This document shows positions 2 through 8,825 of a stretch of DNA of 8,897 nt, piece after piece. Positions within the stretch are counted from its first letter, which is position 1; the number at the start of each line of letters is the position of its first letter. The stretch spans positions 1 through 8,897 of the forward strand of contig NZER01000456.1 of NCBI GenBank assembly GCA_002690445.1, written 5' to 3'. This stretch comes from Candidatus Pacearchaeota archaeon (GTDB lineage Archaea; Nanoarchaeota; Nanoarchaeia; Pacearchaeales; GW2011-AR1). A program made the translations under genes and the position numbers. Under the pieces are notes generated by a model. It made no database searches and was not told where the DNA came from. It saw nothing but the letters and a program-made list of their open reading frames with translations.

Positions 2-772
2 TTTGCCAATGAGATGCCTCTTCCTCCCCATAACATCACAGTGCTTCCATTGCAGCATCCTAACGGCATGTTCTTCTCATTCCAGAGCGCATACCAGATG
101 AATCTTGAATGGAAGTCAGGAGAACTGGAGAAACCTCCTATATCAGAAGAGAATAATATTTATGACCAACTACTCCAAGATCCTTTGCCCTTTCTGACAG
201 ACCCACAGACACATAGACATGTAGGAGATCGTAACTGGATCTACATACGTGAAGCATTTGATAAAGACAAAAATTCCGTGATGGAGATATTCCATGATTT
301 TGGTCTAAGGGAAGAATACTACGATAGAAACGTAACTCAGGATTCCAGAATATTTCGGGATGTCATCAAACAGGGTGATCATTTCCCAACAGACTTTGCC
401 GAACCGGAGTATATTGAATTAGTACTGTCCTTGCTGAATTTCCTGAATACTCCTCTGGTACATCTAGAGAGGCGCGGACTTCCACGTTCCACTAGGAAAC
501 AACTGGAGAGAGAAACAGGTGAAGACAAGGGTACGTGGAGCGCACCGAAGTTTGAGTCCAACGTGATCATACTCCGTCATCCACAAAGGAGGGTTGAGCG
601 CGATGAGGACGGTGAGCCTCTCTACCACACATTCAGGTGGTGGAACTCAGGACACTTCCGTAATCAATGGTATCCGTCATTAGGCATTCATAAGCTGAAA
701 TGGATAGATGCCTATATAAAAGGCCCGGAAGGAAAACCTCTTAAAAGGAAAACTTACAGGGTGGAACAGTAA
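2..772 (+). CDS. Phage-type protein of unknown function, probably 5'-truncated by the window edge
   Basis: The frame is open from the first bases of the window. The first ATG is at 14, but no ribosome binding site is visible in the 13 nt before it, so the gene probably begins upstream and is partial; counted from that ATG it has 252 residues. The most recognisable part is C-terminal (about residues 206-245): HTFRWWNSGHFRNQWYPS followed by WIDAYIKGPEG. From memory this resembles an aromatic, His/Arg-rich tail in uncharacterised proteins of actinobacterial phages and mobile elements, whose function I do not know. The middle is charged and helical, with no catalytic motif I recognise. The stop TAA overlaps the next gene's ATG (TAATG at 770-774), so the two are translationally coupled. 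It is not a Nop-domain protein as far as I can judge. Confidence 0.75.
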   Translation, partial: FANEMPLPPHNITVLPLQHPNGMFFSFQSAYQMNLEWKSGELEKPPISEENNIYDQLLQDPLPFLTDPQTHRHVGDRNWIYIREAFDKDKNSVMEIFHDFGLREEYYDRNVTQDSRIFRDVIKQGDHFPTDFAEPEYIELVLSLLNFLNTPLVHLERRGLPRSTRKQLERETGEDKGTWSAPKFESNVIILRHPQRRVERDEDGEPLYHTFRWWNSGHFRNQWYPSLGIHKLKWIDAYIKGPEGKPLKRKTYRVEQ

Positions 773-2556: not shown

Positions 2557-2579
2557 ATGTATACCCTACGGGTATACAT
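2557..2579 (+). promoter_or_regulatory. Leader hairpin (10-bp perfect inverted repeat) before the main array
   Basis: ATGTATACCC (2557-2566) and GGGTATACAT (2570-2579) are perfect inverted repeats around the 3-nt loop TAC. The 3' arm runs into the first degenerate edge repeat (CATTAACC, 2577-2584). There is no T-run, so it is not a terminator. It may mark or protect the 5' end of the array RNA, or be an operator in DNA. Confidence 0.6.
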
Positions 2580-3678
2580 TAACCATGGAGTCCCAAACGC
2601 AACATCTTGGACGAGTGAACCCTAATTTAAGAACGCACCACGCCAGCCAAGTGAACCCGGTTCGATAATAGCAACACTACGACGGAGTGAACCAGCGCCA
2701 AAAAAAGCAACAAAGTGGCGAAGTGAGTCATCAGTATAGATAGCAACAGTGATAGTCAAGCGAGCCATTTCCAGAGATAGCAGCACCACTCCCAAGTGAA
2801 CCCTTCGAGATAATAGCAACAACGACATATAGTGAACCCCCTCTCCGAAGAGTGCCACGATGAATAAGTGAGCCTGAACCAGCGATAGCAACACTACCGA
2901 GCAGCGAACCCGCCAAGTATAAAAGCACCCATGTGAACAAGTGAGCCATCCTTTGCAACAGCAACATAGACAGTCAGCGAACCCATAGACCCAAGAGCAT
3001 CAAAGTGAGTAAGTGAACCACTGGTTTAGAAAGCACCAAGATAGACAAGTGAACCCTCCTCAGCGATAGCAACAAAATCGTCTAGTGAGTCATATATGTC
3101 GAGAGCATCAGGTAACCACGAACGAACTATCCCATTACGACAGCAACACAGACCATGAGTGAGTCAGCATGTACAAAAGCACCGTGAAGTCGAAGCGAAT
3201 GAGCCATTCTATAAGATAGCAACAACGCTCTCAAGCGATCCAACACCCATGACAGTACCACTGAAACTAAGAGAGCCAACAACTCCTATAGCAACACCTC
3301 TAAAGAGCGAGACAATGGTGCCTAAAAGCAACATATGTAGAGATCGAGCCAGACGATACAAAAGCAACACGCAACGTGAGCGAACCATACCTGCAGAGAG
3401 CACCAAAGTTTTCGAATGAATCAACACCCCAAAGAGCACCCTTCCTATTGAATGAGTCACCCAGCTAGAAAGGCCACATACTCCATGAACGAACCATGAG
3501 ACAGATCGCACCGGATGATACGAGTGAGTCAAGTATTCCGACAGCAACAACTGGTTATGAACGAACCACTGTGATATGAAAGCAACACTGATGAGAAGTG
3601 AACCAATAGCACCGATAGAGCATCAAACCGGACAAGTGAACCAGCGTATAGAAAAGCAGCATCACTGAAGAGTGAAAT
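2577..3678 (+). repeat. TIGR-like dual-repeat array, main block (30 units)
   Basis: From a degenerate first edge at 2577, edges start at 2614, 2650, 2686, 2722, 2759, 2795, 2831, 2867, 2903, 2940, 2976, 3012, 3048, 3084, 3121, 3158, 3198, 3234, 3270, 3306, 3343, 3379, 3415, 3451, 3488, 3523, 3560, 3597, 3635 and 3671. Steps: 18 of 36 nt, 9 of 37, and one each of 35, 38 and 40. Each unit reads edge (RRYGARYC), ~9-nt spacer, loop (RANAGCAMCA), ~9-nt spacer. The last edge (AGTGAAAT) is degraded, and a further loop-like AGCACCA sits at 3697-3703. Spacers look unique. One- to four-base length changes rule out a single protein frame across the block. This matches the architecture known for TIGR arrays (36-nt guide RNA, two 9-nt spacers). 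No repeat here is long enough for a CRISPR. No Nop-domain effector is visible in the window. Confidence 0.9.
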
Positions 3679-3688
3679 AAAAATATAC

Positions 3689-3780
3689 GACACCCAAGCA
3701 CCACATAGCTGAGGAAATTGGCATAACCCCAGCTATGCCCAACCGCATACGAGAGAGGTGATCCCGTGTACTTGGGTGTC
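3689..3780 (+). ncRNA. Folded element at the 3' end of the main array and 5' of the secreted-protein gene
   Basis: An outer stem of 10 perfect pairs joins GACACCCAAG (3689-3698) to CTTGGGTGTC (3771-3780). Inside, CATAGCTG (3704-3711) pairs perfectly with CAGCTATG (3730-3737), extended by two G-C pairs past one mismatch. An alternative hairpin, GGCATA (3719-3724) with TATGCC (3734-3739), would exclude the inner stem. There is no T-run. It could be a 3'-end or processing structure of the array RNA, a cis-regulator of the gene at 3798, or the inverted ends of something that moved. I do not recognise a known riboswitch class. Confidence 0.5.
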
Positions 3781-3797: not shown

Positions 3798-4250
3798 ATG
3801 AAACGTATAGCAAGCATAGGAACAATAGCATTAGTGTTAGCCGCATCAGTATTCATGATAGCGCGTCCCACATATGCAGACACAGGAACAACGATCAGCA
3901 CAGCCGAGAGCGTGATGGGAACGCATACAGTGTGGTTCGGTTCAGGATATGGATTATTCAAGCTACAGAGGTTCGGAACCTACTGTATGCCCGGAGAACG
4001 ATTGACAAACGTTCCCATCGGTGCAAAAGTGCGCGGAATGGAAACAAGGGAATGCGAAGGCATACCCCAACGGTTCAGGCGAGTAACATATGGGAACTAC
4101 TCTGGATGGATGTGGGATTTCACTTTGATGGAGAACGATCCATTAGAAGGACACTTCCCAGATGATACTGAGGAAGAGGTTCCAATACTTAAGGATGACG
4201 AAGCTGTAGAAGAGGCACTAGAGACTGAGCCAGAGGAGCAGGTACAGTGA
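3798..4250 (+). CDS. Secreted protein with signal peptide and SH3-like core (150 aa)
   Basis: The N-terminus is a clear Sec signal: MKR, a hydrophobic stretch (about 5-22), and a likely cleavage after PTYA (residue 27). There is no lipobox cysteine. The mature part contains a region (about 72-107) with an SH3b-like rhythm, PIGAKVRGMETRE followed by RFRRVTYGNYSGWMW, and two cysteines (about 63 and 86) that could form a disulfide outside the cell. The last 40 residues are very acidic. SH3b domains often bind cell wall or ligands at the surface, so a role in surface alteration or exclusion is possible, but no enzyme motif is present. The ribosome binding site is weak (GAGAG at 3785-3789). The gene follows the folded element 3689-3780 closely and overlaps the next gene (GTGA, 4247-4250). 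Confidence 0.7.
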   Translation: MKRIASIGTIALVLAASVFMIARPTYADTGTTISTAESVMGTHTVWFGSGYGLFKLQRFGTYCMPGERLTNVPIGAKVRGMETRECEGIPQRFRRVTYGNYSGWMWDFTLMENDPLEGHFPDDTEEEVPILKDDEAVEEALETEPEEQVQ

Positions 4251-4608: not shown

Positions 4609-4663
4609 TCATCTCGTGTAAATTTTGTCACTCACTCCGGCTGGCAAAGCACACAACTCCTTT

Positions 4664-4705
4664 GAGAGTGGGTTCCAACAGCCCGGAACCCGCTCTCGCT
4701 TTGTT
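4664..4705 (+). terminator. Strong hairpin with short U-tract: attenuator or end of a short RNA
   Basis: GAGAGTGGGTTCC (4664-4676) pairs with GGAACCCGCTCTC (4685-4697) over 13 positions including one G-U pair, with an 8-nt loop, followed by GCTTTGTTTA. With the promoter at 4578-4608 this defines a transcript of roughly 85-90 nt, or an attenuator before the 446-aa gene at 4726. The T-tract is interrupted, so termination may be partial. Confidence 0.6.
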
Positions 4706-4725: not shown

Positions 4726-6066
4726 ATGGAAACGAAGGAATTCGACCAACTCATATTCGATAAGCTCCTATTCGACACTCTTGTACAGAATCACCAGTCC
4801 AACAGATTCGATGCGCTGATCAAAGCCTATCTGGAAGAGGCTGACCTACGTACAGAACCCGACATCTCTCAAGCCGCTGGCGGTGCAGTTCGTCAGATAG
4901 CACACCCGGAACACAAGAAAGAAGACAGGATATATCTATCCAGTGTGAAGGATGAGCAGAAGAAGGAATGGGAAGGAGCAGAGTCACCTCCCGGTGTAGT
5001 TATCTATACCGGAGCCAGAGGTGGAGACTACTTCCTTCAATCCCATGCAGATAATCCGAAGCTGGCGGACGAAGCTATGAAGCGAGCTATACAGACTGCC
5101 ACACCGGAGAAGCGGATGTACGCTAATCTGGGAGCAGACGGAGCGGAAAAGTTCGTAGCAGACTGGGCAGAACGACAAGAAAGCAGATTGGAATGGGCAT
5201 CCAGCAACAAAGACGACTATGAAAGCAAAGTAGAAGCTGTTTCAAGTTCACCAGTTTCTATACTCAGAAAGACAGAATACGCATTCATAACAGCAAATTG
5301 CAACCTGAACCAAGCAAATGCGGCTTGGATGGCTGTACGGGATATAGAGGATCTGAACACCGTAGCCGCAATCTTTGATGGGAAACATCCGGAATTTGGA
5401 TCAACCACCTCTGTCGGAATGGGATCTAAAGGATTTGTTTATGGAGAAAGGGCTTTGTTGTATGGAGGTGGAAGAGCAGGAGCGCTGTCAAATATCAGAG
5501 CAATAGGAGAATTCTTAGGAGATGAGCTTCCAATCGGTCCAACAGACTCCGACAGAGCACGAACAATGGGTTTGTTTTGGGGTCTGGGATGGGCGAAATA
5601 CAGTTTCGCCTCCTCCCTAATCCACGGCAGCAAATCAGAAATTGTCTGCGTTGATACACATATGGCGCAGATATTTCTAGGTGGAGCTAAGGACAGGGAC
5701 TCTTCAGCACTTGCAGAGCGAACGAAAAAGACAGAATTACAAGTACTTCCCGATCCGGATGGAATTCCAATAGGAAACCCTATGGCTTTGGGTGCTGGAA
5801 TATATAGGTACTTGGAGAATTATGTTAAGCACGAAGCGAAGCTAGCAGGATTATCTCCATTTGCATATCAGTGGGCGGCTTGGGACTGGCAGAGAAACCA
5901 GAACGAGAAAGTAAAGAATCCCGATCATAAGGATGTGAAGGAATCACATTCGGTTCTGACCAAAAGAGAACCAGATAAGTATGATCTAGAAGAGATAATC
6001 AAGATCAGTAAGACCACACCAACAGGAAAAGCAGGTCTAGCTCCAGTGCCTCTATCAGACGTTTAG
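4726..6066 (+). CDS. Helix-hairpin-helix DNA glycosylase-superfamily-like protein (446 aa)
   Basis: Residues about 180-320 resemble the HhH-GPD base-excision fold. EYAFITANCNLNQANAAW (184-201) looks like the helix where glycosylases have an A-I-L-S-A-N-like segment. GLGWAKYSFASSLI (286-299) occupies the place of the hairpin plus catalytic Lys helix, with Lys291 the candidate. IVCVDTHMAQ (306-315) matches the V-D-T-H motif, with Asp310 the candidate catalytic residue. The first ~170 residues and the basic tail (after about 390) are unlike glycosylases. Relatives of this fold in phages include enzymes acting on hypermodified thymine (the aGPT-PPlase and hmU-kinase helical groups), so DNA-modification chemistry is an alternative to repair. 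No good Shine-Dalgarno site precedes the ATG; TAATAT (4713-4718) lies 7 nt upstream and could make a leaderless message. The gene follows the 4578 promoter/hairpin. The superfamily is an inference from motifs; the substrate is unknown. Confidence 0.6.
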   Translation: METKEFDQLIFDKLLFDTLVQNHQSNRFDALIKAYLEEADLRTEPDISQAAGGAVRQIAHPEHKKEDRIYLSSVKDEQKKEWEGAESPPGVVIYTGARGGDYFLQSHADNPKLADEAMKRAIQTATPEKRMYANLGADGAEKFVADWAERQESRLEWASSNKDDYESKVEAVSSSPVSILRKTEYAFITANCNLNQANAAWMAVRDIEDLNTVAAIFDGKHPEFGSTTSVGMGSKGFVYGERALLYGGGRAGALSNIRAIGEFLGDELPIGPTDSDRARTMGLFWGLGWAKYSFASSLIHGSKSEIVCVDTHMAQIFLGGAKDRDSSALAERTKKTELQVLPDPDGIPIGNPMALGAGIYRYLENYVKHEAKLAGLSPFAYQWAAWDWQRNQNEKVKNPDHKDVKESHSVLTKREPDKYDLEEIIKISKTTPTGKAGLAPVPLSDV

Positions 6067-7376: not shown

Positions 7377-7673
7377 ATGTCACAGATACCGAACGGGAAA
7401 CTAGAGCCAACTACGATGGGAGAAATCGAAGCGTTCGTGCAGAAGCATTCAGCGGTTGTAGAAGACTTAAAAGGCTATAGGTACGAAGCTACTATAGGAT
7501 TTGTCGATACGATCAGTGTTTTAATGCTTAAAAAGCTGATACTTGACGAAATAGATCGAAGGAGAGCCGAACAAAATACTACTAACTTCTCAGAGAAGGA
7601 AGGGCATATCAGGCACTTCAGGGATATTCTCGCTCAGTTAGAAAATTATAAAAGGGTGACAAAAAGTAAGTAA
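7377..7673 (+). CDS. Hypothetical helical protein (98 aa)
   Basis: The ATG at 7377 is preceded by AAAGGAG (7364-7370), a strong ribosome binding site, so I prefer it to the in-frame ATG at 7341. The protein is predicted to be mainly helical and strongly charged (EIEAFVQKH, MLKKLILDEIDRRRAEQ, HFRDILAQLENYKR), with no cysteine and no signal. It resembles small phage accessory proteins with no known role. The stop TAA and the next ATG overlap (TAATG, 7671-7675), so it is co-translated with the HTH/zinc protein that follows. Confidence 0.65.
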   Translation: MSQIPNGKLEPTTMGEIEAFVQKHSAVVEDLKGYRYEATIGFVDTISVLMLKKLILDEIDRRRAEQNTTNFSEKEGHIRHFRDILAQLENYKRVTKSK

Positions 7674-8410
7674 TGAGCACTGTGTATTACGAAGAGAGGG
7701 ATAAAATAATCGTAAATCGATTATCTACTACTAACGATACGCTACAAGGTATCGGAGATGATTTTGGAATAACGCGAGAGCGCGTTAGGCAGATTGGAGC
7801 GAAGTACGGAGTAGTACGACCAGAAAAGCCTCCAGTCTATTGTAAGAATCCTGCGTGCGATAACGTAATAGAAAAGAGGCATAGCAGTCGTAACCATCTC
7901 GGTAAAACTGCATATCTTGCGTATTGCAGTGAGAAATGTGGAAAGTATGCCCACCAATTAAGAATTAAGAAGTACGAATTTACCTGTGCCTATTGCGGAA
8001 AACACAACGTAATCACAGGATTAAACGCATCCCAACGTAAGTCGTACGATAAGAGGAGAATCCACTCAGAGTTAAAGTATTGCGACAGGAAGTGCCAGCA
8101 AGCTCATTTAGGCATTAAATTCGGATGGGGTGATCCTAACCACACTAATTACCAAAAAGAAGGAAAAAAGAAGTTAGATCCTGAAAAGGTCATTACGCTG
8201 TATTACGAAGAAGGATTAACTCAGATGGAGATTAGCAAACGTCTGGGAACTAAGCAGGGATCAGTAAGTCAGATTATTATAAAAGAGTCTAAAAAGAATC
8301 CTGAGGCAATGAAAAGGTATAAAGCCAGAAGACATCTATCAATATATTATCCTGACTTGCAAGTTAAGTTTAAACAATTCGTAGAGAGTATTAAAAAAGA
8401 ATCTGGCTAA
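7673..8410 (+). CDS. HTH and double zinc-finger DNA-binding protein (245 aa)
   Basis: Domain order: an HTH at about residues 21-45 (TLQGIGDDFGITRERVRQIG) that looks like sigma-factor region 4, the -35-recognising domain. Next, a first zinc unit with cysteines at 57, 62, 85 and 89, and a second at 105, 108, 137 and 141 (CAYC, then CDRKC). Last, a second HTH at about 173-205 (VITLYYEEGLTQMEISKRLGTKQGSVSQI). The two zinc units share the pattern YC-x3-C followed by a helix, so they may be an internal duplication. There is no HNH catalytic triad I can defend. The most likely role is a transcription regulator or specificity factor; homing-type DNA recognition is an alternative. The gene ends the rightward unit and is followed by a clear terminator. 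Confidence 0.75.
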   Translation: MSTVYYEERDKIIVNRLSTTNDTLQGIGDDFGITRERVRQIGAKYGVVRPEKPPVYCKNPACDNVIEKRHSSRNHLGKTAYLAYCSEKCGKYAHQLRIKKYEFTCAYCGKHNVITGLNASQRKSYDKRRIHSELKYCDRKCQQAHLGIKFGWGDPNHTNYQKEGKKKLDPEKVITLYYEEGLTQMEISKRLGTKQGSVSQIIIKESKKNPEAMKRYKARRHLSIYYPDLQVKFKQFVESIKKESG

Positions 8411-8448
8411 GCCACAATCGTAGAACGCAACAGGGAAATCAAGCGATG

Positions 8449-8481
8449 ACCTCCTGATTTAATCGTCAGGAGGTTTTTTTT
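8449..8481 (+). terminator. Rho-independent terminator after the HTH/zinc protein gene
   Basis: ACCTCCTGA (8449-8457) and TCAGGAGGT (8466-8474) form a perfect 9-bp stem with an 8-nt loop, followed by a run of eight T (8474-8481). This is the clearest terminator in the window and closes the 7029-8410 unit. Confidence 0.9.
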
Positions 8482-8796: not shown

Positions 8797-8800
8797 ACGA

Positions 8801-8825
8801 CCGAACATCTGTTCGGTTTTTTTTT
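8801..8825 (+). terminator. Rho-independent terminator
   Basis: CCGAACA (8801-8807) and TGTTCGG (8810-8816) form a perfect 7-bp stem with a 2-nt loop, possibly opened to a slightly larger one, followed by nine T (8817-8825). Beyond it, 8826-8897 holds only CAG-rich sequence in which I support no gene. Confidence 0.85.

Follow-up and report, generated by a model that had tools for sequence, protein, structure and literature searches.

This locus raises the question of whether its short, alternating repeats are guide RNA arrays and, if so, where the protein that would use them is encoded. The initial annotation had identified a single run of 30 units (2577 to 3678) as a TIGR (Tandem Interspaced Guide RNA) array, a type described in 2025 by Faure et al. 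(PMC12045711). In the whole 8.9-kb stretch of DNA that was analyzed, referred to here as the window, there are three arrays, all on the plus strand and with 43 units in total, and we put at about 90% the probability that they are TIGR arrays of a tailed phage, functioning by the mechanism outlined below.

Arrangement of the repeats

The array flagged earlier, designated A2 (2581 to 3675), was found to contain 30 loop repeats with alternating edge repeats, as had been claimed. It begins with a 5'-truncated edge (2581 to 2585) and ends with a 3'-truncated edge (3670 to 3675). The same truncations, which are typical of TIGR arrays (PMC12045711), bound array A1 (1233 to 1632; 11 units), in which the first edge (AACCA) overlaps the stop codon of the open reading frame (ORF) at 1057 to 1233 and the last directly precedes the ATG at 1636. 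A mini-array located at 1936 to 2013 has two units, of which the second shows a degenerate loop; the first edge of the mini-array is complete and holds the stop codon of the ORF at 1636 to 1941. A1 and the mini-array, on the same strand as A2, had been missed in the first reading.

In each array an edge repeat with the 10-nt consensus RA-RY-GA-RY-CA alternates with a 10-nt loop repeat, RA-N-AGCA-M-CA, and each unit has two spacers of ~8 to 9 nt. The proposed unit of 36 nt is correct for most of the 43 units (36 nt in 28 and 37 nt in 12, with one each of 35, 38, and 40 nt), but the period is not perfectly fixed and varies from 35 to 40 nt. Likewise, the repeats of 8 and 10 nt with spacers of 9 and 9 nt given earlier are better drawn, from conservation, as repeats of 10 and 10 nt with 8-nt spacers, the sum being unchanged. 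A strict two-unit pattern matched six times in the window versus zero times in 200 dinucleotide shuffles. The spacers vary while the repeats are conserved: in a table of 39 units, from which the mini-array and the truncated first units of A1 and A2 were omitted, all 39 A spacers and all 39 B spacers were distinct. The initial annotation, which had named repeated spacers as a ground for abandoning its reading, is thus upheld on this point. Among 16-nt spacer pairs from 37 units, the mutual distance was about the same as in column shuffles.

This architecture resembles that of published TIGR arrays, in which edge and loop repeats of 8 to 12 nt alternate with unique spacers of 8 to 9 nt (~9 nt) in 36-nt units (PMC12045711, main sections). 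The 30 units of A2 exceed the 5 to 15 most often reported there. The comparison with published repeats that had been suggested earlier turned up closely similar edges in the SpTIGR array of Salicola phage CGphi29 (NC_020844), which has a 36-nt unit, 8-nt spacers, and the edge RAGCGAGYCA, very like the window edge RARYGARYCA. It differs in its loop (AAGACAACCA) and in the TasH (HNH) effector beside the array, a protein identified from that position and from a match to PDB 21kl; the modeled Tas of a relative of the window's phage (L100; see below) has no nuclease domain. Other known systems also differ. IS110/IS621 bridge-RNA recombinases use a recombinase with one bridge RNA and no array, and box C/D snoRNAs and sRNAs guide RNA methylation and are not arrayed as 36-nt units (PMC12045711, main sections).

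A rho-independent terminator, which is typical of TIGR arrays but not defining, was not found directly after A2; the nearest plus-strand candidate is ~1 kb downstream (4663 to 4698). A long plus-strand stem-loop (GACACCCAAG / CTTGGGTGTC; 3689 to 3780; fold z-score, -3.4) without a U-tract lies between A2 and the gene at 3798. Good intrinsic terminator-like hairpins on the plus strand were located at 4663 to 4698, 8448 to 8475, and 8799 to 8818, although the total count of such hairpins was not above that in shuffles. An Rfam search of the window gave two matches, both far below their gathering scores.

Pairing of half-edges within each unit

In the published TasR structure, the two terminal half-edges of a tigRNA form base pairs (PMC12045711, main sections). 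In the window, position 7 of an edge can pair with position 4 of the following edge at all 38 steps, and position 8 can pair with position 3 at 36 of the 38; this level of pairing was reached in 0 of 20,000 permutations. Control comparisons within the same edge and with the previous edge gave P values of 0.13 to 0.87. When the truncated first units and the mini-array were added, pairing was 43 of 43 and 41 of 43; the two unpaired cases are both C-A (units at 1521 and 3383). Rare letters are also compensated, as U-A in the unit at 3238 and as A-U in the unit at 3310.

For covariation, which the initial annotation had proposed to model, 27 units of 36 nt (25 from A1 and A2 and 2 from the mini-array) were aligned with the loop pair included. 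The score was 0.567; none of 500 shuffles attained it, nor did any attain the observed proportion of paired cells. When the partner was slid, the score fell to at most 0.157, even though a slide of +2 still paired 68.5% of cells. The number of pairs with two-sided change in these 27 units was not above that in shuffles (3 versus a mean of 2.4; 221 of 500). The loop N.M pair is weaker and was supported in 14 of the 27 units. In other loci, 1,180 and 1,178 of 1,197 distinct units pair at the two positions, versus ~1,036 and 1,053 in shuffles; the same-edge control was also raised (1,103 and 1,096), because repeats differ between arrays, but less than the true pairing.

The half-edge covariation was thus apparent unit by unit, and the compensating letter changes indicate that each ~36-nt unit acts as RNA. 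In the main sections of PMC12045711, covariation is reported among consensus repeats compared across TasR arrays; unit-by-unit covariation within one array is not mentioned there. The repeat variation in A2 is enough to show co-evolving half-edges of neighboring repeats within one locus, which marks the tigRNA ends without experiment and extends the pairing known from the TasR structure to arrays whose likely partner is TasA. Tas clades that lack a dual-repeat array in their vicinity have been reported, and some of them have stem-loop arrays (PMC12045711, main sections). A TIGR stem-loop array, in which palindromic variable sequences replace the edges, was considered for the window and rejected, as the edges here are conserved and the pairing spans the unit and not the edge.

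Tas genes and the layout of the system

A pattern built from the window repeats alone matched 81 stretches in IMG/VR, some of them on near-duplicate contigs, and a looser search found a chain of at least five repeats in 79 of the 81 (all except L034 and L065). With a Tas profile grown from CGphi29 TasH, a Tas ORF was detected in 55 of the 81 stretches, with the nearest array on the same strand and within 335 nt or overlapping. Of 22 records behind the loci without a Tas ORF and behind L049, which has a partial one, 14 had a Tas match somewhere, partly in pieces already counted. Pfam Nop (PF01798) had no match in the 20 array-bearing records tested; Transposase_20 matched both Tas proteins scanned, CGphi29 TasH and the Tas of L100. 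The array pattern had no exact match in GTDB genomes (84,980 bacterial and archaeal species genomes), and the Tas of one locus (L012) had no match among named phages. One of five distal repeats (L124) was discarded because, when read, it turned out to be a different type of tandem repeat. The TIGR identity given in the initial annotation is supported by this recurrent association of the same repeats with Tas ORFs, together with the architecture, the truncated edges, the half-edge covariation, and the CGphi29-like edges.

The window itself departs from published TIGR-Tas loci. A Nop-domain gene (TasA, TasH, or TasR), which the initial annotation had suggested seeking in the flanks, is not present within the 8.9 kb: a profile HMM of array-adjacent Tas proteins, run against ORFs and six-frame peptides, gave a best E value of 1.3. 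Two related phage contigs, L100 and L108, end in the first gene of the window (2 to 772), and each has a Tas ORF ~7 to 8 kb upstream of the matching place with no array seen adjoining it. Both contigs stop 0.7 to 0.9 kb before the expected start of A1; therefore, no single molecule of this lineage was seen to carry both tas and the arrays. Because L100 and L108 have a distant upstream Tas without an adjacent array, a split layout is likely, and the protein partner of the window arrays is probably encoded several thousand bases away. The arrays of the window are judged to be genuine TIGR arrays, of a kind already known, with this probable split layout. The main sections of PMC12045711 do not mention dual-repeat arrays far from tas. 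Should tas and arrays prove to be split, a search limited to 5 kb around tas, the distance used in the methods of that paper, would miss such arrays; the repeat pattern finds them directly.

The strongest competing explanation is that these are orphan TIGR arrays whose Tas was lost or never present, so that they are relics or depend on a co-infecting phage to provide Tas in trans. The lack of any Tas ORF or remnant in 8.9 kb would fit, as would the fact that the repeats have drifted away from the GAGCGAGCCA / GAGAGCACCA type seen at most other loci. However, this drift is compensated at the pairs, as continuing selection would give, and an open Tas frame lies upstream in L100 and in L108, the two relatives with the first gene of the window, which makes orphan arrays unlikely. 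Short, evenly spaced repeats with small Cys-containing and helix-turn-helix proteins nearby might also point to an operator or iteron array that a protein binds at the DNA level, but such an array gives no reason for a 3' half-repeat to complement the next 5' half 36 nt on, with compensation, or for the same repeats to adjoin Tas ORFs in 55 of 81 stretches, and its probability is minimal. Equally negligible is a CRISPR-like array or decaying minisatellite, for which the long, regular array with unique intervals might be taken, since covariation and Tas association contradict both, the two kinds of 10-nt repeat are unlike the single ~25- to 36-nt CRISPR repeat, no Cas domain was found in the ten window proteins scanned, and the distances between spacer pairs, in 37 units, are close to those in column shuffles; the initial annotation had likewise set aside CRISPR arrays, iterons, and minisatellites.

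By homology to TasR and TasH, for which tandem-spacer DNA binding and guide trimming have been described (PMC12045711, main sections), the following mechanism is proposed for the TIGR arrays of the window. After transcription, a host RNase together with Tas would trim the transcript to ~36 nt, each unit being cut from mid-edge to mid-edge to give one tigRNA. Motifs resembling box D (RA) and box C (CA), located in the loop repeat and in both half-edges, would hold its two 8- to 9-nt spacers, and the pairing of the half-edges that the covariation shows would close the RNA. The window's phage is predicted to encode a TasA-type Nop-domain Tas without a nuclease domain, like that ~7 to 8 kb upstream in L100 and L108, which may bind each tigRNA as a dimer. 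Spacer A would pair with one strand of the DNA and spacer B, at an adjacent site, with the opposite strand, so that the target would be A plus the reverse complement of B, 16 to 18 bp, as in published TasR and TasH work. Because the modeled structure of the L100 Tas has no nuclease domain, interference is expected to proceed without cutting; the likely effect would be binding, unwinding, and bending of target DNA, so that competitor or host DNA could not be transcribed or replicated. The 43 guides present in 8.9 kb make it probable that the system is directed at many sites.

A broader proposal is more tentative, and we hold it a little less probable than its negation: one nuclease-free, array-less Tas gene may serve several distant arrays with 43 or more guides, the arrays may be carried at the 3' ends of small phage genes for Cys-containing proteins, and complementarity of the half-edges may be kept by selection, so that the whole tigRNA, and not the repeat, would be the unit of evolution.

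The Tas of L108 (9914 to 10972) matches PHROG phrog_4285 (9e-36), which is labeled transposase (integration and excision); this label probably misleads when applied to phage genes of this sort. A conserved phage protein of L100 (1110 to 1610) and L108 (4528 to 5034) has weak Cas2-like and PaaX-like matches, those of the L100 protein being to PaaX_M, ChrB_N, and Cas2, each below the curated cutoff. It adjoins tas in L100 only, because the gene block is inverted between the two contigs and the L108 homolog lies in the inverted block away from tas. The L100 protein had no match below an E value of 0.5 among the ORFs of earlier loci, and a tas-linked adaptation gene is therefore not claimed. L100 proteins searched in IMG/VR returned their own contig.

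Target searches and other genes of the window

In order to evaluate potential targets, sites of the form A8, 0 to 2 nt, and the reverse complement of B8 were sought for 1,204 units in fetched viral sequences totaling ~0.78 Mb (1.55 million positions over the two strands) in which the arrays were left unmasked, with re-paired B spacers as the control. Exact matches (0 versus 6 in the control), one-mismatch matches (77 versus 77), and two-mismatch matches (1,612 versus 1,637) were not in excess. For 37 window units, searched in two geometries, the window with its arrays masked, together with the L100 contig and 19.4 kb of L108, gave 4 and 4 two-mismatch matches versus control means of 2.8 and 2.9 and 45 and 43 three-mismatch matches versus 47.1 and 46.3. 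When the units of all loci were searched against their own masked locus, the TasR geometry gave 10 two-mismatch matches versus 15 in the control (plus one at one mismatch) and the opposite geometry gave 23 versus 12 (plus one at one mismatch), an excess that is not taken as signal with a single control shuffle per geometry. Spacer targets above control were thus absent from the viral sequence, the window, and L100 and L108; true targets may lie elsewhere.

The five genes described here between 2 and 2394 are on the plus strand. The first (2 to 772) is the 3' part of a phage gene of PHROG 15934, function not known, and is common to L100 and L108; its protein had one weak match among named phages, to Streptomyces phage Yara. 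Named phages gave no DNA match to the window and no match to the proteins encoded at 4726 to 6066 and 7673 to 8407; in IMG/VR these two and the Cys-containing family had no relatives. The 446-aa protein at 4726 to 6066 has two homologs (E ≤ 0.001) among 7,996 scored candidates, no Pfam family above cutoff, and no relative in GTDB genomes, and its fold model (pLDDT, 30.7) was too poor for use.

An 89-aa hypothetical protein (2125 to 2394) is encoded upstream of A2. Also upstream of A2, between 2386 and 2475, several copies of a TAATGTGAYCCAT-like motif were noted by eye, ~13 nt apart and with one pair at 36 nt; the period is 13 at 2405 to 2434. It is possible that this cluster is an operator or iteron cluster.

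The small proteins near A1 are an 84-aa Cys-containing protein (772 to 1026), a 58-aa CxxC protein (1057 to 1233) that is zinc-ribbon-like by eye only and at whose stop codon A1 begins, and a 101-aa Cys-containing protein (1636 to 1941) between A1 and the mini-array, with a C-terminus shorter than that of its two homologs (119 aa). Among 3,882 extracted ORFs, no window ORF had a homolog except the two Cys-containing paralogs, which matched each other, and these proteins, otherwise without homologs in that set, were rejected as an alternative effector. The two paralogs (772 to 1026 and 1636 to 1941) flank A1 and share 49% identity over 51 aa.
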